A DNA stretch of 64,000 nt from Mycolicibacter hiberniae (GTDB taxonomy: Bacteria > Actinomycetota > Actinomycetes > Mycobacteriales > Mycobacteriaceae). The position numbers and the translations under genes were made by a program. The notes under the pieces were generated by a model. The model was given only the letters and a program-made list of their open reading frames with translations, was not told the DNA's origin and did not search any database. The stretch lies in NCBI RefSeq assembly GCF_010729485.1, contig NZ_AP022609.1:2542001-2606000 (forward strand). The letters are read 5' to 3'. Shown in pieces: positions 29,146 to 50,706 of the stretch (positions are counted from its first letter, which is position 1; each line of letters starts with the position of its first letter).

Positions 29146-32100
29146 TCAGAAGGCTCCGGCGAATTCCGGAATCAGGCTGGCCCACAGGTCGGCCGCTGCG
29201 CCCGAGGCGAATTCGGTGGCATCGGCAGCGCCGGCAGCCGGTGCGCCCAGCAGCTCGGCGATCTGTTGCGGCAGGTCGTTGAACAGCAGGGGCATCAGCC
29301 CGCCGAACCACCCGCCGTCGAGCGTGAAGGCGTCGAAGTCGCTCAGACCCAGGCCGTCCAACAGTCCATCCAGGTTCAGGTTGCCGGTCAGATCGCCCAG
29401 CAGCGCACCCAGCCCCAGGTCCCAGGTGCCCAGGCCGCCGAGCAGACCGCCCAGTGTCATGCCGCCCAGCCCCACACTGCCCAGCAGGTCGGGCAGCGTC
29501 ATCTCCCCCAGCCCGACATCGCCGAGCAACGCGGGCAGGTTCAGGCCGCCCAGCCCGAGGCCGTCGAACAGCCCACCGAGCGTCAGGTCGTCCATGCCCA
29601 GATCGGCCAGCAACCCGGGCAGCGTGACATCGGCCAGATCCAGCGCATCCAACAGCCCCGGCAGGGTGAAGCCGCCGGTACCCAGGTCGGTCAACAGCTC
29701 ACCGAGCGTCAGATCGCCCACGCCCAGGCCGCCCAGCAGACCGGGCAGGGTCATATCGCCCAGGCCCAGATCGGTCAACAGAGCGGGCACGAACATCCCG
29801 CCGATGCCCAAACCGCCCAGCAGGGCCGACAGCGTGGCGTCGCCCAGGCCCACATCAGTCAGCAGCGACGGCAGCGTCGCGTCGCCCAGACCCAGATCGA
29901 TCAACAACCCCGACAGCGTGAAGTTGCCGGTTCCCAGACCACTGAGCAGCTCGCCCAGCGTCAGATCTCCCACGCCCAGGTTGCCGAGCACCCCCGCGAG
30001 CGTGACATCGCCCAGCCCCAGGCTCTCCAGCAGGCCGGGCAGGAAAAAGCCGCCGATGCCCAAACCGCCCAGCAGGGCCGACAGCGTCGCGTCGCCCAGA
30101 CCCAGATCGGTCAACAACCCCGGCAGCGTCGCGTCGCCCAGACCCAGATTGGCCAACAGGCCCGACAGTGTGAAGTTGCCGGTTCCCAAGTCGCTGAGCA
30201 GCTCGCCCAGCGTCAGATCTCCCACGCCCAAGTTGCCGAGCACCCCCGCGAGCGTGACATCGCCCAGCCCCAGGCTCTCCAGCAGGCCGGGCAGGAAAAG
30301 GCCGCCGATGCCGAAGTTGCCCAACAGGCCCGCAAGAGTCGCGTCGCCCAGACCCAGATCGGTCAACAACCCCGGCAGCGTCGCGTCACCCAGACCCAGA
30401 TTGGCCAACAGGCCCGACAGTGTGAAGTTGCCGGTTCCCAAGTCACTGAGCAGGCCGCCCAGGGTGAGGTTCTCCAGGCCCAGCCCCTCCAACAGGCCGG
30501 GCAGCGTCAGGCCGCCCAAGTTCAGCCCGCCGAGCAGAGAACCGAGGCCGAGGTTGCTCAGCTGCAGGTCCTCCAGCAGCCCACCCAGTGTCAGGTCACT
30601 CAGGTTCAGGTTGCCCAGCAAGGAGCCCAGAGTGAGTTCGCCGGTGGCCAGGTTGCCCACCACGGCGCCCAGCGTCATCTCACCCAGCCCCAGGTTGTTG
30701 ACCAGACCCGGCAACGTGAGGTTGCCCACCAGGCTTTGCAGCAGGTTGGCCAGGTTCACCTCGTCGATACCCAAGGCGCCCAGTAGACCGTCGAGGTTCA
30801 GGGCACCCAACGTCAGGCTGCCGACCACGTCGTTCAGTGACAAGGTTCCGATTCCCAGGTTGTCGAGCAGTTGCGGCAGGCTCACGCCCAGGCCCAGGCT
30901 GTTGAGTAGGCCGACCAGATTGTCGTCGCCGAGGCCCACCGCGTTCAGCAGCCCGTTGACGCTCGTGTGTTCCAGCCCCAGGACCTGCAGCAGGCCGTTC
31001 CATCCGGTCCAGCCCAGGGTGAAGTTGCCCAAGCCGAGGTTCAACAGGATCAGGGGCAGGGTCTGGTTGTAGAGCCCCAACCCGTGCAGGACGCCGTTCA
31101 GGCTCACCCCGGCACCCTGCGCGGCGATATTGCCCAACAGGGAGTTCAGGGTCACGTCGAGGCCGAAGAAGCTCAGCAGACCGCCGACGGTGATCCCGGT
31201 CGCATCCAAGGGGCCGTTGAGATTGAGGGCGTCCAGGGCATCGGAGATAAACCCGAGGTCGACCCCCAAGAACCTGAGCAGTGAACCGGCGCCCAGGGTG
31301 ACGTCGAAGTCGTGCAGCAGCCCGCCCAGACCCTGCTGCCCGACGCCGATCGTGTTCAGCAGGTCCACCAGGGTCAGCTGGCCCATACCGAGGTTGTTGA
31401 CCAGGCTGTGCAGGCCCATGGTGCCCAACCCCATGCTGTTGATCATGGTGCCGATGCTGATGTCGCCCAGCCCGAGGTTGTTCAGCACGTCCTTGACGAC
31501 CAGGCCGTTCATGTTCAGGTTGTAGAACAGCGTGTGCAGGCTCATCCCGCCCAGCCCCAGGTCGCCCAGGAGGCCGCCGAGGCTTTGGTTGCCCAGTCCG
31601 AGGCTGGTCAGCATGCTCGGCAGTGTCGTGGTGCCCAGCAGGGAGCCGACCAGGCCGGACAGCGTGATGTCGCCCATGTCCATGTGGCCCAACAGTTCTG
31701 GCAGGGTGGTGCCGCCGGCCCCGATGCCGCCGACCAGCCCGCCCAAGGTCAGCTCGGTCAGCCCCAGGTCGCCGATCAGGCCGGGCAGCGTGGTGGCGCC
31801 CAATCCGATGCCGGTCAGCAGTCCGTTGAGGTCCAGGTTGTCCAGGCCGACGGCGCCGACCAGGCCGCCCACACTCAGGCCGGTCAGGGCCAACGTGTCC
31901 ACCAAGCCGCCCAGTGTCAGGTCCGCGGTGCCCAGACCTGCCAGCAGGCTGCCCAGCGTCAGATCGGTCATTCCCAGGTCGTCGACCAGGTCGGGCAACG
32001 TGGTCCCGCCCAGCCCGATGTCCCCAAGGAAGGCGCTGACGTTCAGGCTGCCCAGCCCCACCCCGTCCAGCAAGCCGACCAGCGTGGTGTCGCCCAACCC

Positions 32101-33918
32101 GACGCCGTCCAGCAGCCCGGGCAACGTCATATGCCCCAGACCCGCGCCGCCAAGCAGCCCGGGCAGGGTCATCTCACCCAGCCCCAGACCGTCCAACAGC
32201 CCGGTCAGCGTGGTGTCGCCCATCCCCAGGTCCTCGATCAAGTCGGGCAACGTGGTACCGCCCAACCCGACCGCGCCCAGCAGCGCCCCGACGTCCAGAC
32301 CGCCCAGCCCCACCCCGTCCAGCAAGCCGACCAGCGTGGTGTCGCCCAACCCGACGCCGTCCAGCAGCCCGGGCAACGTCATATGCCCCAGCCCGGCGCC
32401 GCCGAGCAGCCCGGGCAGGGTCATCTCACCCAGCCCCAGACCGTCCAACAGCCCGGTCAGCGTGGTGTCGCCCATCCCCAGGTCCTCGATCAAGTCGGGC
32501 AACGTGGTACCGCCCAACCCGACCGCGCCCAGCAGCGCCCCGACGTCCAGACCGCCCAGCCCCACCCCGTCCAGCAAGCCGACCAGGGTGGTGGTGCCCA
32601 ACCCGACGCCGTCCAGCAGCCCGGGCAACGTCATATGCCCCAGCCCGGCGCCGCCGAGCAGGGCGGGCAGCGTGAGGTCACCCAGCCCGACGCCTTCCAA
32701 CAGGCCGACCAGCGTCAGTTCGCCCAGTCCCAGGTCTTCCATCAGGCCGGCCAGCCCGGCACCGCCCAGGCCCACATCCGCCAGCAGCTCCGACAGTGGC
32801 GTGTCGCCCACTCCGACATCGTTCAAGAGTTCGGCCAACGTGGTGTCGCCCAGGCCCACGCCACCCAGCAGCCCCGTCAAGGTCATGTCCCCCATGCCGA
32901 CGTCGGCCAGCAGGTCGCCCAACATCACGCCGTTCAGGCCCACCCCGCCCAGTAGCCCGCCCAGCGTCAGGCCGCCCAATCCCAGGTCGCCCAGCACCTC
33001 GGGCAGCGTCACGTCCCCCAACCCGATGGTCCCCAGCACCTGATCGAGACCCAGGCCGCCCATTCCGACACCGTCGAGCAGGCCGCCCAGTGTCATGCTG
33101 CCCAGCCCGAGGTCACCCAGCAGTCCCGGTAGCGGTGTGGTCAGCACGTGGTCGAGCACTCCGCCCAGGTCGATGTCGGCGCCACCCAAGGCGTTGAGCA
33201 CCGTGCCCAAGCCGCCGAGCAATCCGTCCAGCTGGGTCAGCAGTTCTCCGACGGGCAGCTGGGTGTCGAGTGTCTGCGTGGGAACCAGCAACCCGTTGAA
33301 CGCCGGGATGCTCACGCCCAGCACATCGAGGTTGTCCGAGCCGTTGAGGTAGGCGTTCAGCAGGTGGGCCGGGGCGGTCAGCAGCGCGGCGAGGATGTCC
33401 TGCGGATCGGTAGCCGCCTGCATGGTGCCGATGATTCCGTTCAGCTCGTTGAAAGTGGCCACCGTCGGCCCCAGACCGGCGATCAACATGGCCAGCGGCA
33501 CCGAGAGGTCTACCGATATCGGCGCCGGCAGCGGCAGGATCTGGGCGCCGATCACCGGGAGCAGGGTCGCCAGAAGGCTGCTCACCTGCTGCACGTTGTT
33601 GGAGATGTTCTCCAGCACGCCACCGATCGATTGCGGATCGGCGCTGAGCTGCTCCAGATAACCCGTCCAGTTGGTGACGATCTGTTGCAGTACCGGAAAC
33701 GGCTGGGCAAGCCACTGCTGGTTCATGGCTTGCACGTTGGCCAGGGTGTTGGCGTAGAGGTTCTGGTAGGGCCCGATGATGTCTGCCGTGTCCCCGGCCA
33801 GCGTTACGGCCCGCACCTGGACGTCAGCGGGCAGCGGCTGGATCGGTGTGACGGCGATGACGCTGGCGCCGAAGAGTACGACGCCGGTCGTGATGTACGG
33901 ACGGAGTGCCTGTCGCAT
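29146..33918 (-). CDS. Giant exported protein of 14-residue Gly/Leu repeats
   Basis: A 1590-residue protein. It begins MRQALRPYITTGVVLFGASV, a hydrophobic export signal seen in several mycobacterial surface proteins, then a non-repetitive domain to about residue 260. From about 263 to 1526 it is built of a 14-residue unit, roughly L-x-x-[LV]-G-[LM]-G-x-x-T-L-x-x-L, by length about 85-90 copies, with a degenerate centre (about 800-1010). The C-terminus (about 1527-1590) is non-repetitive and ends PEFAGAF. The unit is neither PGRS nor the MPTR NxGxGNxG motif, and there is no PE or PPE domain. The ATG at 33918 has an AGGAG site 7 bases upstream. A surface, adhesive or antigenic role is inferred only from build and export. 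Confidence 0.8.
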   Translation of the reverse strand: MRQALRPYITTGVVLFGASVIAVTPIQPLPADVQVRAVTLAGDTADIIGPYQNLYANTLANVQAMNQQWLAQPFPVLQQIVTNWTGYLEQLSADPQSIGGVLENISNNVQQVSSLLATLLPVIGAQILPLPAPISVDLSVPLAMLIAGLGPTVATFNELNGIIGTMQAATDPQDILAALLTAPAHLLNAYLNGSDNLDVLGVSIPAFNGLLVPTQTLDTQLPVGELLTQLDGLLGGLGTVLNALGGADIDLGGVLDHVLTTPLPGLLGDLGLGSMTLGGLLDGVGMGGLGLDQVLGTIGLGDVTLPEVLGDLGLGGLTLGGLLGGVGLNGVMLGDLLADVGMGDMTLTGLLGGVGLGDTTLAELLNDVGVGDTPLSELLADVGLGGAGLAGLMEDLGLGELTLVGLLEGVGLGDLTLPALLGGAGLGHMTLPGLLDGVGLGTTTLVGLLDGVGLGGLDVGALLGAVGLGGTTLPDLIEDLGMGDTTLTGLLDGLGLGEMTLPGLLGGAGLGHMTLPGLLDGVGLGDTTLVGLLDGVGLGGLDVGALLGAVGLGGTTLPDLIEDLGMGDTTLTGLLDGLGLGEMTLPGLLGGAGLGHMTLPGLLDGVGLGDTTLVGLLDGVGLGSLNVSAFLGDIGLGGTTLPDLVDDLGMTDLTLGSLLAGLGTADLTLGGLVDTLALTGLSVGGLVGAVGLDNLDLNGLLTGIGLGATTLPGLIGDLGLTELTLGGLVGGIGAGGTTLPELLGHMDMGDITLSGLVGSLLGTTTLPSMLTSLGLGNQSLGGLLGDLGLGGMSLHTLFYNLNMNGLVVKDVLNNLGLGDISIGTMINSMGLGTMGLHSLVNNLGMGQLTLVDLLNTIGVGQQGLGGLLHDFDVTLGAGSLLRFLGVDLGFISDALDALNLNGPLDATGITVGGLLSFFGLDVTLNSLLGNIAAQGAGVSLNGVLHGLGLYNQTLPLILLNLGLGNFTLGWTGWNGLLQVLGLEHTSVNGLLNAVGLGDDNLVGLLNSLGLGVSLPQLLDNLGIGTLSLNDVVGSLTLGALNLDGLLGALGIDEVNLANLLQSLVGNLTLPGLVNNLGLGEMTLGAVVGNLATGELTLGSLLGNLNLSDLTLGGLLEDLQLSNLGLGSLLGGLNLGGLTLPGLLEGLGLENLTLGGLLSDLGTGNFTLSGLLANLGLGDATLPGLLTDLGLGDATLAGLLGNFGIGGLFLPGLLESLGLGDVTLAGVLGNLGVGDLTLGELLSDLGTGNFTLSGLLANLGLGDATLPGLLTDLGLGDATLSALLGGLGIGGFFLPGLLESLGLGDVTLAGVLGNLGVGDLTLGELLSGLGTGNFTLSGLLIDLGLGDATLPSLLTDVGLGDATLSALLGGLGIGGMFVPALLTDLGLGDMTLPGLLGGLGVGDLTLGELLTDLGTGGFTLPGLLDALDLADVTLPGLLADLGMDDLTLGGLFDGLGLGGLNLPALLGDVGLGEMTLPDLLGSVGLGGMTLGGLLGGLGTWDLGLGALLGDLTGNLNLDGLLDGLGLSDFDAFTLDGGWFGGLMPLLFNDLPQQIAELLGAPAAGAADATEFASGAAADLWASLIPEFAGAF
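29880..30480 (-). repeat. 252-bp higher-order repeat B in the repeat protein
   Basis: A block of six 14-residue units (LGTGNFTLSGLL, LGLGDATLPGLL, LGLGDATL, GIGG-FLPGLL, LGLGDVTLAGVL, LGVGDLTL) recurs. The landmark AAGTTGCC starts at 29921, 30173 and 30425, exactly 252 bp apart each time. Copies are nearly identical at DNA level, so the duplications are recent or kept uniform by conversion. Confidence 0.9.
32045..32660 (-). repeat. 252-bp higher-order repeat A in the repeat protein
   Basis: A different block of six 14-residue units (LGLGEMTLPGLL, AGLGHMTLPGLL, VGLGDTTLVGLL, VGLGGLDVGALL, VGLGGTTLPDLI, LGMGDTTLTGLL) is repeated. The landmark CAAGCCGACC starts at 32071, 32323 and 32575, again exactly 252 bp apart. 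The sequence family differs from repeat B, but the period is the same. Confidence 0.9.
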
Positions 33919-34510
33919 GATCCGCTCCTGAGGTCGGGGCCGGCCTTGGTCGGCGACTCGGATCTCGGCAGCGTATGACACAGGCGATTCTTAGGTTGAC
34001 GCCGAATTAGTCATTGTTACTTCTCCGTGATTGATTCGTTATCATTCCGTGATTTTTATATGGTGCTGATGTCCAGTCTCTTTACATCGCCAACGCGGCG
34101 GGTAGCGGAATACGTGAATTGTAAATTTGGTGGATCCTCGACGCCTTTTGGGGCCACCAGCCGTTTCGACGGCTCCCAGTACGTGGCCGCCAAACCCTGC
34201 CGCTTCCAGCGCATAGGCCCCGACTCCCCGCACTGAAGCGACGATGACCCCCGCCATGCCGGACAATTGCAATTAGTTCGGTCATGAATGCAGGCGGGCC
34301 CGCGTCCGGGCCGCAATTGTTGGCACCGAACTGTCGTTGTGCTAATTCAGGCGGGCGAGAAGACACCCATCTCCGGGGCTAAGACGGAGGCCGGCGGGCC
34401 GGGTTCTCCCCTCGGTTTCGGCACCTTGACGCCGTCAGAGACTGACACTTTCCACGGCTTTTGCACAGGTAATCCACACAGTGGGGATGGATGGCGGCGC
34501 TGCCGGCGGC
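33919..34510. other. 592-bp gap, partly AT-rich, between the repeat protein and lpqB
   Basis: No convincing gene lies here. The stretch 33985-34130 is much richer in A+T than the surroundings and probably carries the promoter of the repeat protein (minus strand). A 69-codon plus-strand reading frame at 34027-34236 has no ribosome site or recognisable motif. The right part (34290-34510) lies just downstream of the lpqB stop, and I see no clear terminator in it. The composition break fits the junction of the accessory block with the backbone. Confidence 0.5.
34024..34054. promoter_or_regulatory. Direct repeat TCCGTGATT, possible regulator sites
   Basis: TCCGTGATT occurs at 34024-34032 and 34046-34054, exactly 22 bp apart, about two helical turns, so both copies face the same side of the DNA. 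They sit about 110-135 bases upstream of the repeat-protein start beside an AT-rich run (TATAAAAAT on the minus strand) that could be a promoter element. Confidence 0.45.
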
Positions 34511-44882: not shown

Positions 44883-45959
44883 CTATCGGGCTGCGCCGGC
44901 GCGCCGAGCTTCGATGAAGTGCGGTAACCGGAACCTGCGCGGCGCACGCACCGCGGCGTCGTCCTGCGGCGCTCCGCCGCTCTGGGCGGCGGCGTAGGCG
45001 GCCGGGTCGCCGGTGACGCTCAGCACCTGGCCGTGCCAGGTGATGTCGGCCTCCCGATATGCCTCGAGCAGAGCCCGCTCGAGCAGCATGTCGGCCTCGG
45101 CGATCGACAGCGCCTCCAACTCGACGAACTCACCGTCCCGCGCGTCGAGTCGCAGCGTGGTGGGGCCGGCCTCCACCAGATCGCAGCTGGCCCGGATGCT
45201 CAGTTCGGCGTTGGCGCGTGTCAGCCCGGCCAGCACATAGGCGGCCAACAGCACACGGCACGCCTCGTCCCCGGCCGGACCGCAGTCGAATCGCAGTTGC
45301 CGCAGTGCGGCGAAGCTGAGCACCTGGGTGCGGATGATCCGGCTGCAACACACGCCGGTGTCGGCCAGGGCACGGGAATCCGCCGGCGCCCCGTCGACGA
45401 GCACCCCGATGATCTCGCCGGACAGCACCCCGCGGAAACGGCTCTGCCCGGTGCCGAGAGCGGAGTCGATCGCGCCGAAGGCCAGGCTGCCGGGACTCAG
45501 CCGCAGCAGGGTACGGGCATTGTCGAGGGTGCTCTCGCGGGCCGCCCGGTAGGCCGGGTGTGTGATCGCAGGCTTGCCGTCGATCGATCCGGTGAGAAAA
45601 TGCCCGTCGAAAATGCGTTGCGGCAGTTCGAGATCGGTGTACACCAGCCGACCGCCCTCGTAGCTGACCTGGGTGCGCGGCACCCGGCTCAATGTCGGAT
45701 GCTGGTCGCGAATGCCCTGCAGGATCGCGGCCTCGACGCGCTGCACCTGGCTGTGGTTGTCGTCGATGAGCACCGTCGCCGTCGGCGACCCGTCGATCAA
45801 CCGGGTCGCAACGGTCGACGCCGAGCGCCCCGAGCCGCGAGCCGGGCGGATCGCGGTGTGACTGCCCCCGGCCGGTGCCAGCTCGGTGGACACGCTCAGG
45901 GTGCTCCCCCCGCCGGCCTGGCAGGCGGCGGTGAGCTGCTGGTAGGACAGTTTGGACAC
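44883..45959 (-). CDS. Orphan Csb1/Cas7u-like (GSU0053 family) protein
   Basis: A 358-residue protein resembling the Csb1/GSU0053 (Cas7u) family of type I-U CRISPR systems, an RNA-binding backbone subunit. The matching parts are TELAPAGGSHTAIRPARGSG, ATVLIDDNHSQVQRVEAAIL (family LxDSxQSQANRxE), YTDLELPQRIFDGHF, DNARTLLRLSPGSLAFGAID (family fellcPtaLvFGxWDS) and RFRGVLSGEIIGV. No cas3, cas5, cas6, cas1/2 or CRISPR array is in the window. The GTG at 45959 lies 5 bases after the CDF stop, so it is the last gene of the pmmA-manA-CDF run. The role is unknown. The family call is from remembered motifs, not a search. Confidence 0.65.
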   Translation of the reverse strand: MSKLSYQQLTAACQAGGGSTLSVSTELAPAGGSHTAIRPARGSGRSASTVATRLIDGSPTATVLIDDNHSQVQRVEAAILQGIRDQHPTLSRVPRTQVSYEGGRLVYTDLELPQRIFDGHFLTGSIDGKPAITHPAYRAARESTLDNARTLLRLSPGSLAFGAIDSALGTGQSRFRGVLSGEIIGVLVDGAPADSRALADTGVCCSRIIRTQVLSFAALRQLRFDCGPAGDEACRVLLAAYVLAGLTRANAELSIRASCDLVEAGPTTLRLDARDGEFVELEALSIAEADMLLERALLEAYREADITWHGQVLSVTGDPAAYAAAQSGGAPQDDAAVRAPRRFRLPHFIEARRAGAAR

Positions 45960-45964
45960 GGCGA

Positions 45965-46906
45965 TCAACCTTTCTGCTGCACCGAGTCTGGCACAGGGGT
46001 TCGGTCCAGATCGGGCTCGAGATAGATGACCAGCGCCGCCGGGACGGCCGCGCGGATGTTGGCTTCGGCGGTGTCGATGGTGGCCGCCACCCCCGCCAGG
46101 TCGAGTTGGGGAACCACCGCGATCTTGGCGCCCACCAGCATCTCGTCCGGCCCCAGATACTGGGTGCGGATGTGGATCAGACGGGTGACGTTCTCGGTGT
46201 TCTCCAGCGCCGCCCGAATGGCCCGGTCCTCGGCAATGGTGGCGCCCTCGCCGATCAGCAGACTGTGCATCTCGACCATCAGGAACACGGCGACCACGCC
46301 GAGCAGCACACCGATCCCGAGGGTTCCCACGCTGTCCCACACCGGGTTGCCGGTCAGCACCGACAATCCCACGCCGACCAGCGCGAGCACCAGCCCGATC
46401 AGCGCGGCGGTGTCCTCCAGCAGCACCACCGGAAGCTCGGGATTGCGCGAGGTGCGAAGGAAACGCCACCAACTTCCCTGGCCCTTCAGCGGGCGCGACT
46501 CGACCACAGCGGTGCGAAAGCTGTAGGTCTCCATGCCGATCGCCACCACCAGGATCACGATGGCCACCATCGGCGAACTCAACTCGACCGGGTGGCGCAG
46601 CTTCTCGTACCCCTCGAACAGCGCGAACATCGAGCCCAGGCTGAAAAGCACCAGCGCAACCACGAACGACCAGAAGTACCGGCTGCGGCCGTGCCCGAAC
46701 GGGTGCAGCGCATCCGGCGCCCTGGTGGCGACACGCTGGCCCAACAGCAACAGCGCCTGGTTGGAGGTGTCGGCCACCGAATGCACCGCCTCGGCGAGCA
46801 TGGCGGCGCTACCGGTGATCAGGTACCCGGTGAATTTCGCCACCGCGATACCGGCGTTGGCCACAAGGGCCGCGACGATGGCCTTGGTGCTGCCCGACGA
46901 CGACAC
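45965..46906 (-). CDS. Cation diffusion facilitator transporter
   Basis: A 313-residue CDF-family metal/proton antiporter with about six helices. Metal-site motifs are AEAVHSVADTSNQ (HxxxD, helix II) and VLLEDTAALIGL (helix V). A His-containing loop LHPFGHGRSRYFWSF follows helix II. The C-terminal cytoplasmic domain (about 215-300) includes HIRTQYLGPDEMLVGAKIAV. Zn or Mn are plausible substrates. The GTG starts one base after the manA stop. It has no counterpart next to manA in M. tuberculosis as I remember it. Confidence 0.9.
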   Translation of the reverse strand: MSSSGSTKAIVAALVANAGIAVAKFTGYLITGSAAMLAEAVHSVADTSNQALLLLGQRVATRAPDALHPFGHGRSRYFWSFVVALVLFSLGSMFALFEGYEKLRHPVELSSPMVAIVILVVAIGMETYSFRTAVVESRPLKGQGSWWRFLRTSRNPELPVVLLEDTAALIGLVLALVGVGLSVLTGNPVWDSVGTLGIGVLLGVVAVFLMVEMHSLLIGEGATIAEDRAIRAALENTENVTRLIHIRTQYLGPDEMLVGAKIAVVPQLDLAGVAATIDTAEANIRAAVPAALVIYLEPDLDRTPVPDSVQQKG

Positions 46907-46907
46907 G

Positions 46908-48173
46908 CTAGAGGCCTATCGTCGCCCGGAACAGGGCGGCTGGTTGCTGGGCCAGCAGCCGGATCGGCCCGTCATCGCAAGGCACCCAGGCAGACTCGCC
47001 GCGGCGCAACGTCAACGTCTTCGATTTGGCGTGCACCGTGATGGAGCCTTCGGTGCACAGCAGGATCTGGGGGCCGTCATGGCGCGCCGGCGCATCCACC
47101 TCGTGGCCCAGGTGCGGGCCGTCGAGCGCCAGGCGCGACACCGCGAATTCCTCGGCGGGGGTCCGGTAGACCACCTCCAGTCCATCGGTGTAGGTGGCCG
47201 GCCGCAGGGCCTCCTCGGTGGTCGGAGTGAAGTCCAGTACCCGCAGCAATTCGGGAACGTCGACGTGCTTGGGGGTCAGCCCGCCGCGCAACACGTTGTC
47301 GGAGTTGGCCATCACCTCCAGGCCCACCCCGTGAAGGTAGGTGTGCAGATTTCCGGCCGATACGAAGATGGCTTCTCCCGGCGCCAGGCTGACCCGGTTG
47401 AGCAGCAGCGAGGCCAGCACCCCGGCATCCCCGGGATACCGTTCGCCGAGCTCGAGCACCGTCTTGGCCTCCGCGGAGAATTCGCCGGCGGCGGAGCTGA
47501 GGTACTGGATGGCCCCTTCGAGCACCGCCGGCACCAGGACGTCCAGGTCGGGCTGGGGCGCGGTGATCCACGTGGTGAACAGCGCCCGCAGCCCGTCGGC
47601 ATCGGACTGCGCATCGGCGAGGGCGCTGCCGGGCGGGCCGCCGAGCAGGTCGATGAACGGGTCCAGGTCCGACACCGCCAGCGCCCGCAGCAACTCAATG
47701 GTGCGCGCCACCGGCCGGAAACCGGCTAGCGCCTCGAACGGCTGCAGCGCCACCAGCAGTTCCGGCTTGTGGCTGGTATCGCGGTAGTTGCGAATGGGCG
47801 AGGACACCGGCACCCCCAGCCGCTCCTCGCGTTCGTAACCCTCGATCGCCTGCATGGCACTGGGGTGAGCCTGCAGGGACAGGGGCTCGTCAGCGGCCAG
47901 CACCTTGACCAGGAACGGCAACCGGTCACCGAAGCGGGCTTGGGCCAACGGGCCCAGCTGACCCTCCGGGTCGCGGGTCAAGACGCTGAGCAGCGACACC
48001 TCGCCGGTGTCGGTCTCCAGGCAGGCCGGATCCCCCGGGTGCGCGCCCAGCCACAGCTCGGCCTCGGGATGCGCCGCCGGAACCGGCCGACCGGTGAACT
48101 CGGCGATAGCGGTCCTCGAGCCCCAGGCGTAGGTCCGTATCGCGCCGCGTAGCTGTTCCACTGTTCCCGTCAA
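46908..48173 (-). CDS. manA: Mannose-6-phosphate isomerase (type I)
   Basis: A 421-residue type I phosphomannose isomerase, interconverting fructose-6-P and mannose-6-P for GDP-mannose, PIM, LAM and mannoprotein synthesis. It shows RTYAWGSRTAI, PLSLQAHPSAMQA (metal ligands Gln and His), HKPELLVAL, SAGNLHTYLHGVGLEVMANS and the C-terminal cupin. The TTG at 48173 overlaps the upstream stop as TTGA; a GTG at 48161 is an alternative. It is equivalent to Rv3255c. Confidence 0.93.
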   Translation of the reverse strand: MTGTVEQLRGAIRTYAWGSRTAIAEFTGRPVPAAHPEAELWLGAHPGDPACLETDTGEVSLLSVLTRDPEGQLGPLAQARFGDRLPFLVKVLAADEPLSLQAHPSAMQAIEGYEREERLGVPVSSPIRNYRDTSHKPELLVALQPFEALAGFRPVARTIELLRALAVSDLDPFIDLLGGPPGSALADAQSDADGLRALFTTWITAPQPDLDVLVPAVLEGAIQYLSSAAGEFSAEAKTVLELGERYPGDAGVLASLLLNRVSLAPGEAIFVSAGNLHTYLHGVGLEVMANSDNVLRGGLTPKHVDVPELLRVLDFTPTTEEALRPATYTDGLEVVYRTPAEEFAVSRLALDGPHLGHEVDAPARHDGPQILLCTEGSITVHAKSKTLTLRRGESAWVPCDDGPIRLLAQQPAALFRATIGL

Positions 48174-49297
48174 CCCCGCAAAAGTCGCACGTAGGCGGCC
48201 GTCATCTCCAACCGCACGGCCAACACCGCAAGCTGTTGTTCGGCCCGCCCGCTGTGAGGCAGGGCCCCCGGACCGACCGCCGCCTCCTCCACGGCGCCCC
48301 CCGCCAGCGGTACGTCCTCGGCCGCCACCAGATCCACATCATGCATGCCGCTGATCCGGGCAGCCACCACCGTACGCTCGGCGGCCAGTGTCAGGGCCAG
48401 CACCCGCAGCCGGTCGCCGGCCGGACCGTCGATCTGCTCGTCGTGAAAGATGTCGGCGGCATCGTGGCCGCCGGCGGACCGGGCCCGCACCGCGTTCATG
48501 GCATCGGCCAGCCCGGCTGCGGCCACCGTGCTCCGGCCGACCCCCAGCATCACGGCACTGCCGTGGCGGGCCAGTGCCAGGGTGGCCGCGCAGTCACCGG
48601 CCAGCGCAACGTCCCGGCCGACGATGCGGTCCGCCAGAATCTTGGCCGGGTTGGTGAACAGCTCGCGCGCGGCACTGTTGCGCAGCGCCTCGGCGTCGAG
48701 TTCGTCGGCCAGGGCGGCCAGGTCGATCCCGGCACCGGCGTCCTCGCCCTCCAGGGCGTCGAGGATCGCCAGCCCGGCGGCCAGGTAGCGCGGGAGGCCG
48801 AACTCCGCCGGCACCGCGATCCGCGGCTCCAGCACCGCGACGCGCCCAGCGGTGGCGTCGCGCAACGGGCCCTCGTAGGGCGCGACCACCACCACCTGTA
48901 GCCCGCGTCGCACCCCGGCCGCGGCAGCGGCGACCAGCGCCGGATCCCCCGGGTCATCGCCGGCGACCACCAGCACATCCAACGACCCGATCCAGGCCGG
49001 GGTCTCGGCGGCCAGGACCAGCGGTGCGCGGGCCGAGTCGCCGCGCGCTGCGGCCAGCAGGCTGCCGGCCGTTGCGCCGGTGCCGCGGGTGGACAGCCAG
49101 ATAATCGTGCGGGGCGGATAACTGCGGCTCTGCTCGCGCAGCCCGTCCAGAACGCCCTCGTCGACCGCGGCGGCGGTAGCACGCACCTGCGCCCCGGCCA
49201 TCGACGCGGCCCAGAGCACACCGTCGCGGTCAGCGGCCAACAGGGCCTCGGTGTCATCGAGGTCGACGGTGGAGAACGAGCCGGAAAAAGCGGTCAC
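48170..49297 (-). CDS. SIS-type phosphosugar isomerase-like protein (Rv3256c-like)
   Basis: A 375-residue protein with two SIS-like halves. IIWLSTRGTGATAGSLLAAA (about residues 65-84) and LVLAAETPAWIGSLDVLVVA match the sugar-binding SIS fold, and the C-terminal part resembles the phosphoglucose/phosphomannose-isomerase C-terminal domain. It lies between pmmA and manA with 4-base overlaps on both sides, so a role in mannose activation is likely, though M. tuberculosis Rv3256c has no assigned reaction that I know of. It starts with GTG. Confidence 0.85.
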   Translation of the reverse strand: MTAFSGSFSTVDLDDTEALLAADRDGVLWAASMAGAQVRATAAAVDEGVLDGLREQSRSYPPRTIIWLSTRGTGATAGSLLAAARGDSARAPLVLAAETPAWIGSLDVLVVAGDDPGDPALVAAAAAGVRRGLQVVVVAPYEGPLRDATAGRVAVLEPRIAVPAEFGLPRYLAAGLAILDALEGEDAGAGIDLAALADELDAEALRNSAARELFTNPAKILADRIVGRDVALAGDCAATLALARHGSAVMLGVGRSTVAAAGLADAMNAVRARSAGGHDAADIFHDEQIDGPAGDRLRVLALTLAAERTVVAARISGMHDVDLVAAEDVPLAGGAVEEAAVGPGALPHSGRAEQQLAVLAVRLEMTAAYVRLLRG

Positions 49298-50706
49298 GGA
49301 CCCGACTTCTCCGCGGCGGCGACAGCCTCGATCTGCGCCGCGACCTGGGCCACCACTGCGTCCACGGCGGCGGCATCGGGCGCCTCGACGTTAAGCCGCA
49401 ACAACGGCTCGGTGTTGGAGCTGCGCACGTTGAACCAGCGGCCCGCACCCAGGTCGACGGTCACACCGTCGAGGTGGTCGACAGCCACCTGGTCTCCGAA
49501 GGAGGAGACCACGGCGTCCACCAGAACGGACGCCTCGACTCCATCCGTCAGGGTGAAGTTGATCTCGCCCGAGGCCGCATAACGCTGGTAATCGGCCGTC
49601 AGCTCCGACAGCGGTCGTTGCTGTTCACCGAGTGCGGCCAGCACGTGCAGAGCGGCCAGCATGCCCGAGTCCGCTCCCCAGAAGTCCCGGAAGTAGTAGT
49701 GCGCCGAGTGCTCCCCGCCGAAGATGGCCCCGGTCTCGGCCATCAGCGCCTTGATGAAGGAGTGCCCGACCCGCGACCGCAGCGGCGCGCCGCCGCGCTC
49801 GGCCACCAGTTCCGGCACGGCACGCGAGGTGATCAGGTTGTGGATCACCGTGGCGCCGGGCTCGCGGGCCAGCTCGCGGGCGGCCACCAGACCGGTCACC
49901 GCTGACGGCGACACCGGCTCGCCACGCTCGTCGACCACGAAACACCGGTCGGCGTCGCCGTCGAACGCCAGGCCTATATCAGCGCCGCTTTCGCGCACGA
50001 ACGCCTGCAGATCGGTGAGGTTGGCCGGGTCCAGCGGATTGGCCTCGTGGTTGGGAAAGTTGCCGTCGAGTTCGAAATACAGCGGCAGCAGCGTGATCGC
50101 CTCGACCGATCCGAATACCGCCGGCGCGGTGTGGCCGGCCATCCCGTTGCCGGCGTCGACGGCCACTTTGAGCGGACGCAGACCGGAGATGTCGACCAGG
50201 GAGTGCAGGAATGCCGCGTAGTCGGCCAGCACGTCGCGTTCGGTGACGGTGCCGCGCGGCACGGTGCCGTCACCGGCCGTGTCGACACCGGCGATCAGCT
50301 CGTCGCGGATCCGGCCCAGACCGGTGTCGGCACCCACCGGCTTGGCGCCCGCCCGGCACAGCTTGATGCCGTTGTAGGCAGCGGGGTTATGACTGGCGGT
50401 GAACATCGCCCCCGGACAGTCCAGCGCCCCCGAGGCGAAGTAGAGCTGGTCGGTGGAGGCCAGGCCGATCCGGACCACGTCCAGGCCGCGGGCCAGCACG
50501 CCCTCGGCGAAGGCCGCCGACAACAACGGCGAACTGTCCCGCATGTCGTGGCCTATCGCCACCTGCCGGGCGCCTTCCTCGGCCATCAGCCGGGCAAAAG
50601 AGGACCCGACCTCGGTGACGAGGGTTTCATCGATCTCCGAACCGACCAGGCCACGTACGTCGTACGCCTTGATCACACGGTGGACAGCCGCAGCGGGCCG
50701 AGACAT
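49294..50706 (-). CDS. pmmA: Phosphomannomutase/phosphoglucomutase
   Basis: A 470-residue alpha-D-phosphohexomutase (Rv3257c; also called manB in some annotations). Catalytic serine loop MFTASHNPAAYNG, metal loop LAFDGDADRC, sugar-binding GGEHSAHYYF and phosphate-binding RSSNTEPLLRL are intact. It converts mannose-6-P to mannose-1-P for GDP-mannose synthesis by the manB pyrophosphorylase at 55848. It leads the pmmA, Rv3256c-like, manA, CDF, Csb1-like run. Confidence 0.94.
   Translation of the reverse strand: MSRPAAAVHRVIKAYDVRGLVGSEIDETLVTEVGSSFARLMAEEGARQVAIGHDMRDSSPLLSAAFAEGVLARGLDVVRIGLASTDQLYFASGALDCPGAMFTASHNPAAYNGIKLCRAGAKPVGADTGLGRIRDELIAGVDTAGDGTVPRGTVTERDVLADYAAFLHSLVDISGLRPLKVAVDAGNGMAGHTAPAVFGSVEAITLLPLYFELDGNFPNHEANPLDPANLTDLQAFVRESGADIGLAFDGDADRCFVVDERGEPVSPSAVTGLVAARELAREPGATVIHNLITSRAVPELVAERGGAPLRSRVGHSFIKALMAETGAIFGGEHSAHYYFRDFWGADSGMLAALHVLAALGEQQRPLSELTADYQRYAASGEINFTLTDGVEASVLVDAVVSSFGDQVAVDHLDGVTVDLGAGRWFNVRSSNTEPLLRLNVEAPDAAAVDAVVAQVAAQIEAVAAAEKSGP

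Follow-up and report, generated by a model that had tools for sequence, protein, structure and literature searches.

The region considered here lies in a window of 64 kb, i.e., the whole stretch of Mycolicibacter hiberniae DNA that was analyzed, in which a single cas7g/csb1-like gene closes a row of genes on the minus strand. The row reads pmmA, Rv3256c-like, manA, CDF and csb1, and the last gene starts 5 bases after the CDF gene, as had been proposed in the preliminary description of this DNA. The names of the four neighbors are those which we take to apply. The features are the following:

44883..45959, minus strand: solitary cas7g/csb1-like gene, 358 amino acids, GTG start, recognized by PF09617, PADLOC and fold
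44908..44943, minus strand: CRISPR-repeat-derived segment of 36 nt in the csb1 coding sequence, encoding residues 340-350, PRRFRLPHFIE
45351..45395, minus strand: short stretch, residues 189-203, in place of residues 191-272 of the canonical Cas7g of locus L100, from alignment and models
45965-46906, minus strand: CDF-family metal transporter gene, directly upstream of csb1
45969..45975, minus strand: AGAAAGG within the 3′ end of CDF, likely the ribosome-binding site of csb1
46908..48173, minus strand: presumed manA-like gene, syntenic in the clade
48170..49297, minus strand: presumed Rv3256c-like gene, syntenic in the clade
49294..50706, minus strand: presumed pmmA/manB-like gene, syntenic in the clade

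AGAAAGG is likely the ribosome-binding site of csb1; it is found upstream of this gene in 18 of the 19 loci listed, the remaining one (L070) carrying AGAAGGG.

The open reading frame was recovered at the position first assigned to it, from 45959 to 44883 on the minus strand, and its 358 residues contain all three of the Csb1-family motifs quoted in the preliminary description. The kinship with Csb1/Cas7u that had been put forward on that basis is upheld by profile searches: the protein falls inside PF09617 (Cas_GSU0053), with 122.8 bits against a gathering cut-off of 25, and it matches the PADLOC model for Cas7g (E 1.1e-27). It stays under the curated cut-off of the stricter NCBIfam model TIGR02570, an equivalog domain model for type I-G Csb1/Cas7g (29.8 bits; cut-off 38). 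The Cas7g fold is kept, as judged by a structure comparison (VIA-align) with the solved type I-G Cas7 (Csb1/GSU0053, Cas7g), structure 8ANE (PMC9638904). When the window protein or its alignment was compared by sequence with the PDB, no meaningful match resulted; a distant mycobacterial Cas7g does match 8ANE in such a search. Several relatives are labeled by NCBI as 'type I-U' or 'type I-G CRISPR-associated protein Cas7'. That the window protein is a true relative of Cas7g/Csb1 is thus supported.

The absence of CRISPR partners, which had been noted for the window, extends to the whole genome as far as profile and protein searches reach. The genome (4.40 Mb, one contig) contains a single PF09617 gene, and no full type I-U locus that could use csb1 was found elsewhere in it. 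Cas1 was not found by a profile that matches in 9 of 14 control genomes, and Cas10 was not found either (control: matches in 5 of 14). Csb2 was not detected with PF09609, a profile that is also silent in the control; a Csb2 protein query, run on seven genomes, matches G483 and G246 but not the remaining five, among them that of the window (G000). The cas3_core profile gives four matches in the window's genome, all below the cut-off (as a control, all 14 genomes give matches, which exceed the cut-off in 6). Among the close direct repeats of the window there is no CRISPR-like array, and Rfam returns nothing in the window at the gathering threshold. The only family of close direct repeats found is located in an open reading frame of 1611 codons (29146-33981, minus strand) with 22 diverged copies of a 42-nt unit, presumably resembling a mycobacterial repeat protein. 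Genome-wide, arrays were checked by the word of the L100-type repeat described below, which occurs twice, at csb1 and at the start of a dehydrogenase-like gene. The kept Cas7g fold would suit a working CRISPR subunit that serves a system located elsewhere in the genome, but with Cas1, Csb2 and Cas10 missing and no Cas3 over the cut-off in these searches, such a role is extremely improbable.

Context for the origin of the gene is given by close canonical relatives such as L100 (genome G483), which lies in a full I-G locus consisting of Cas7g, Csb2, Cas3g, Cas8g, Cas4-1, Cas2 and an array. A tree that includes outgroups nests the solitary genes, together with 15 metagenomic intermediates (25 rows, support 100), among Cas7g proteins of Mycobacterium and Nocardia, and L100, L102 and others among these surrounding proteins lie in canonical I-G loci. 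When the C-terminal tail was cut before tree building, with 14 rows left out (long branches, duplicates), the 25 tail-bearing rows again formed one side of a branch (support 100/100); because this tree is midpoint-rooted, it does not by itself show the nesting. Sequence comparison therefore strongly supports the view that the solitary gene derives from a type I-G system of actinobacteria, namely from its Cas7 (Csb1).

The most telling feature of the gene, and one that is absent from the preliminary description, is its repeat-derived tail. Canonical Cas7g proteins end in an acidic stretch, and the solitary clade has a longer C-terminal end. In the window, the DNA encoding this tail is identical to the type I-G repeat of G483 (L100) at 27 of 36 positions, a value not reached anywhere else in the window on either strand (next best 24), and CCGCACTTCATCGA is shared exactly by both. 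The window's copy is nevertheless among the weaker repeat matches, and its hairpin is broken. In all 18 named loci the csb1 tail is the best L100-repeat match of the whole locus, with a maximum of 32/36 in M. kumamotonensis, and for all 25 distinct genes the best match in the coding sequence lies in the tail (26-32/36). Simulated tails (400 per repeat) reach at most 24/36 for the L100 repeat, and the 3′ ends of 13 canonical csb1 genes 16-20/36. A scan of 2,497,146 positions gave L100-repeat matches of at least 26 solely in arrays or in tails of solitary csb1 genes; the arrays concerned are those of L100, L102, L072 and L074, and L075 was called an array by the spacing of about 72 bases of weaker neighboring matches. 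At 25/36, one place (L030:16119) is neither an array nor a csb1 tail. Two opposite-strand repeat arrays flank the csb1 locus of Nocardia transvalensis (L074; 8743-9382 and 16694-18971), with repeats that agree with that of L100 at as many as 31 of 36 positions.

When nine I-G repeats were tried, the tail was picked out in every one of the 25 genes by L100 and L072, and in fewer genes by L032 (24), L042 (20), L043 (19), L105 (15), L049 (11) and the distant repeats L046 and L048 (2). Accordingly, the captured repeat would be of the L100 kind. The claim of a repeat origin rests on repeats of this kind, and the uneven matches are what would be expected if such a repeat was the one captured. The orientation of the repeat with respect to cas7 agrees with that of the L100 array, and the second reading frame of the repeat, RRPFRRPHFIE, shares 8 of 11 residues with the tail peptide PRRFRLPHFIE. 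The tails of 12 of the 15 intermediates match the frame-2 peptide better than shuffled sequences (p <= 0.004; e.g., RPFWRPYLV); those of P0043, P0045 and P0053 give no significant match to it.

One might argue that the likeness is a coincidence and that CCGCACTTCATCGA is merely the preferred coding of PHFI(E/D). The word is present in 79 copies in G483 and once at csb1 in all 11 clade genomes searched, five of which have one further single copy; in four clade genomes the same 14-base word opens a gene which we take to be aldehyde-dehydrogenase-like, and the repeats of L046 and L048 do not match the tail. However, the full 36-nt match at these dehydrogenase-like starts is at noise level (20-22), compared to 26-32 in csb1, the orientation is right, the tail is found solely in a clade descended from I-G Cas7, and the peptide agreement comes on top of this. 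Coincidence is therefore highly improbable. At the protein level, the tail peptide is conserved as well: its mean column entropy is 0.16 bits, compared to 1.54 for the linker before it, 1.23 for the end after it and 0.40 for the core, and 6 of its 11 columns are invariant (linker 0 of 9, end 2 of 8, core 51%). The tail is disordered in the structure model, as would be expected for a short docking motif.

Conservation of the segment could also act at the level of the RNA. According to this explanation, what is retained is a hairpin formed by the captured repeat in the csb1 mRNA; the hairpin would be bound by Cas7 itself or an RNase and would autoregulate the operon, the peptide being a by-product. 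Over the 25 genes, the repeat stem keeps 148 pairs, where 124.4 would be expected with protein and codon use kept equal, the mean MFE is -10.2 (expected -7.3), and codons 344 and 346-348 are identical in 24 or 25 of the genes; these genes are not independent, however, and a residual stem is expected from ancestry alone. Moreover, the synonymous diversity of the tail is ordinary (0.886 of expectation, rank 106 of 353), and there is no excess of stem in the window or in L054, where 0.86 and 0.85 of the shuffles, respectively, fold as well; in most species the gain in hairpin stability over expectation is modest. We regard this explanation as unlikely.

In addition to gaining a tail, the solitary protein has lost conserved parts of Cas7g. 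When 60 tail-less, 15 intermediate and 25 solitary proteins are aligned, a stretch of about 82 residues of canonical Cas7g, which is predicted to form a strand pair with helices between in a canonical relative, corresponds to 15 residues in the window protein. G203, R206, D208, G260 and P263 (L100 numbering) are held by 60 of 60 tail-less relatives, and all 25 solitary proteins show gaps at four of these positions (R206, D208, G260 and P263), so the conserved internal stretch is not kept. K70, N75, H116, W166 and S179, likewise invariant in the 60 tail-less relatives, are lost in the solitary protein; many conserved arginines are kept. The intermediates P0040 and P0041 possess both the repeat tail and the internal stretch, which argues that the tail was acquired before the stretch was lost. 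P0040, P0041, P0036 and P0038 are metagenomic intermediates with the repeat tail in which the stretch is complete or half-lost, and they form a series of stepwise loss.

The gene is distributed in a way that points to vertical inheritance. In the family sample, PF09617 is present in 26 of 401 genomes at 27 places, six of which sit in the pmmA-manA-CDF row. The other 21 are all near a Cas3 cluster, and further neighbors are Cas4-1 (13), Cas2 (12) and Csb2-type clusters (16), their identities being assigned through L100. In the genus sample, 34 of 396 genomes carry PF09617 at 36 places, 21 of the solitary kind and 15 others, 14 with cas neighbors and one (G534) at a contig edge. A close CDF occurs in 116 genomes of this sample: the 21 with at least 82% identity are exactly the 21 genomes with a solitary csb1, and none of the 95 with at most 80% identity has one. 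All 21 clade genomes of this sample thus carry the solitary gene, at the same place. Among named genomes, scanning yielded 23 loci, of which 18 belong to the clade and 5 lie outside; the clade loci comprise 17 named Mycolicibacter and one Mycobacterium sp., and csb1 stands directly behind manA-CDF in all 18, with the M. engbaekii gene 97% identical to the window's. In the 18 non-clade loci examined, the CDF gene follows manA and no csb1 lies behind it within roughly 1.5 kb. In view of this clade-wide presence and the absence from non-clade CDF loci, the solitary csb1 looks to have been gained once and fixed in the Mycolicibacter clade. A second genus draw of 345 genomes gave no intermediates; 20 of these had a match, all of them genomes already covered.

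Selection acts on the gene as it does on the rest of the row. Across 19 loci (the 18 named ones and the window), csb1 has a median dN/dS of 0.207 and no in-frame stops, and the medians of its neighbors are 0.194 (CDF), 0.220 (Rv3256c-like), 0.126 (manA) and 0.147 (pmmA, 18 loci). The reading frame is intact, without an inner stop, in 25 of 25 distinct genes, which were drawn from 40 loci and distinguished by their last 300 bases. The solitary csb1 is under purifying selection, at a dN/dS like that of its operon neighbors. A decaying, functionless relic of an I-G locus, as could be imagined from the disappearance of the partner genes searched for and the loss of some Cas7g-invariant residues, is very unlikely given these values and the constant presence at one place throughout the clade. 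The earlier proposal of an RNA-binding effector backbone kept alone stands as regards Cas7g kinship, solitude within the genome searches made, and selection; the effector role stays hypothetical, the internal stretch and invariant residues being lost while many conserved arginines are kept.

The descent from I-G Cas7 and the loss of a conserved stretch would also fit a counter-CRISPR decoy aimed at incoming I-G systems: the shortened Cas7 would bind their crRNA, or else poison or cap their Cascade. However, in one genome (G246; L049 and L034/L060) a canonical I-G locus with an array and Csb2 coexists with a solitary csb1, of which the 3′ end is identical to that of L060 from M. longobardus. 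In addition, no relatives of the window protein were found in 50,697 phage records, nor of its alignment in a pattern-based scan of viral contigs. A decoy is consequently quite improbable. Carriage by phages or plasmids was rejected separately: these searches gave no phage or viral relative, and plasmids gave distant cas7u only (four records with query P0041, <60% identity).

Several features set the gene apart from systems described before. Compared to the type I-G Cas7 (PMC9638904), it lacks adjoining csb2, cas3, cas8 and an array, N75 and H116 are changed, the stretch of about 82 residues has become 15, and a repeat-derived tail is added. As in CreTA modules and other ectopic repeats, a CRISPR repeat is located outside an array; in CreTA, the repeat acts as an RNA directing Cascade (PMC9458426), whereas the csb1 repeat encodes part of a protein and the genome searches gave no Cascade partner (Cas1, Csb2, Cas10 and cut-off-grade Cas3 searched). 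The gene shares the lack of an array with isolated or orphan cas loci, but those of PMC5294841 hold at least three cas genes, compared to one clade-fixed, repeat-fused gene here. Repeat sequence inside a protein is also known from arrays translated by annotation error; unlike the spurious reading frames across arrays (PMC7673337), csb1 contains a single repeat in a conserved frame, with a peptide motif under selection. The parts covered of two surveys of mycobacterial CRISPR systems (PMC10333696; PMC7820667) do not mention a solitary csb1, and a literature search, within the portions of text it reached, gave no description of a solitary Cas7 in Mycolicibacter or of a repeat-derived Cas tail.

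The findings suggest that remnants of an immune system have given rise to a new cellular protein. According to this reading, fusion in an ancestor placed a sense-oriented CRISPR repeat behind the 3′ end of cas7, and one frame of that repeat has supplied the C-terminal motif PRRFRLPHFIE from then on. Such a fusion would arise most simply if the DNA between cas7 and a point inside the array, with csb2-cas3-cas8-cas4/1-cas2, had been deleted. Later, the stretch of about 82 residues would have shrunk and then been lost, and several invariant residues would have changed. In the Mycolicibacter ancestor the gene would have come to stand last in the pmmA-manA-CDF row, and it is now a vertically inherited host gene. 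The protein may keep part of the basic RNA groove and would be unable to build the normal interlocked crRNA filament, and binding of short RNA is proposed for that reason. As a whole explanation, origin plus function, a dismantled I-G locus whose cas7 was fused to one repeat and exapted is the reading that we consider fairly probable. The function itself is more tentative: the protein may be a Cas7-fold binder of short RNA, acting in short assemblies and probably on cellular transcripts, whose disordered tail docks to a partner or to RNA. Possible but doubtful is the more specific idea that the repeat was exapted as a protein docking motif in a host RNA-binding protein regulating the GDP-mannose/CDF operon or other transcripts, perhaps also with an mRNA hairpin that is read by the same Cas7.

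It is known that CRISPR systems can be repurposed as modules. In the present case, a whole clade has retained one backbone subunit by itself, and DNA of a non-coding array appears to have become a conserved peptide. The annotation 'type I-G Cas7' in Mycolicibacter is by itself no proof of a CRISPR system, and a role of the Cas7 fold outside immunity becomes directly testable in culturable, non-listed mycobacteria.
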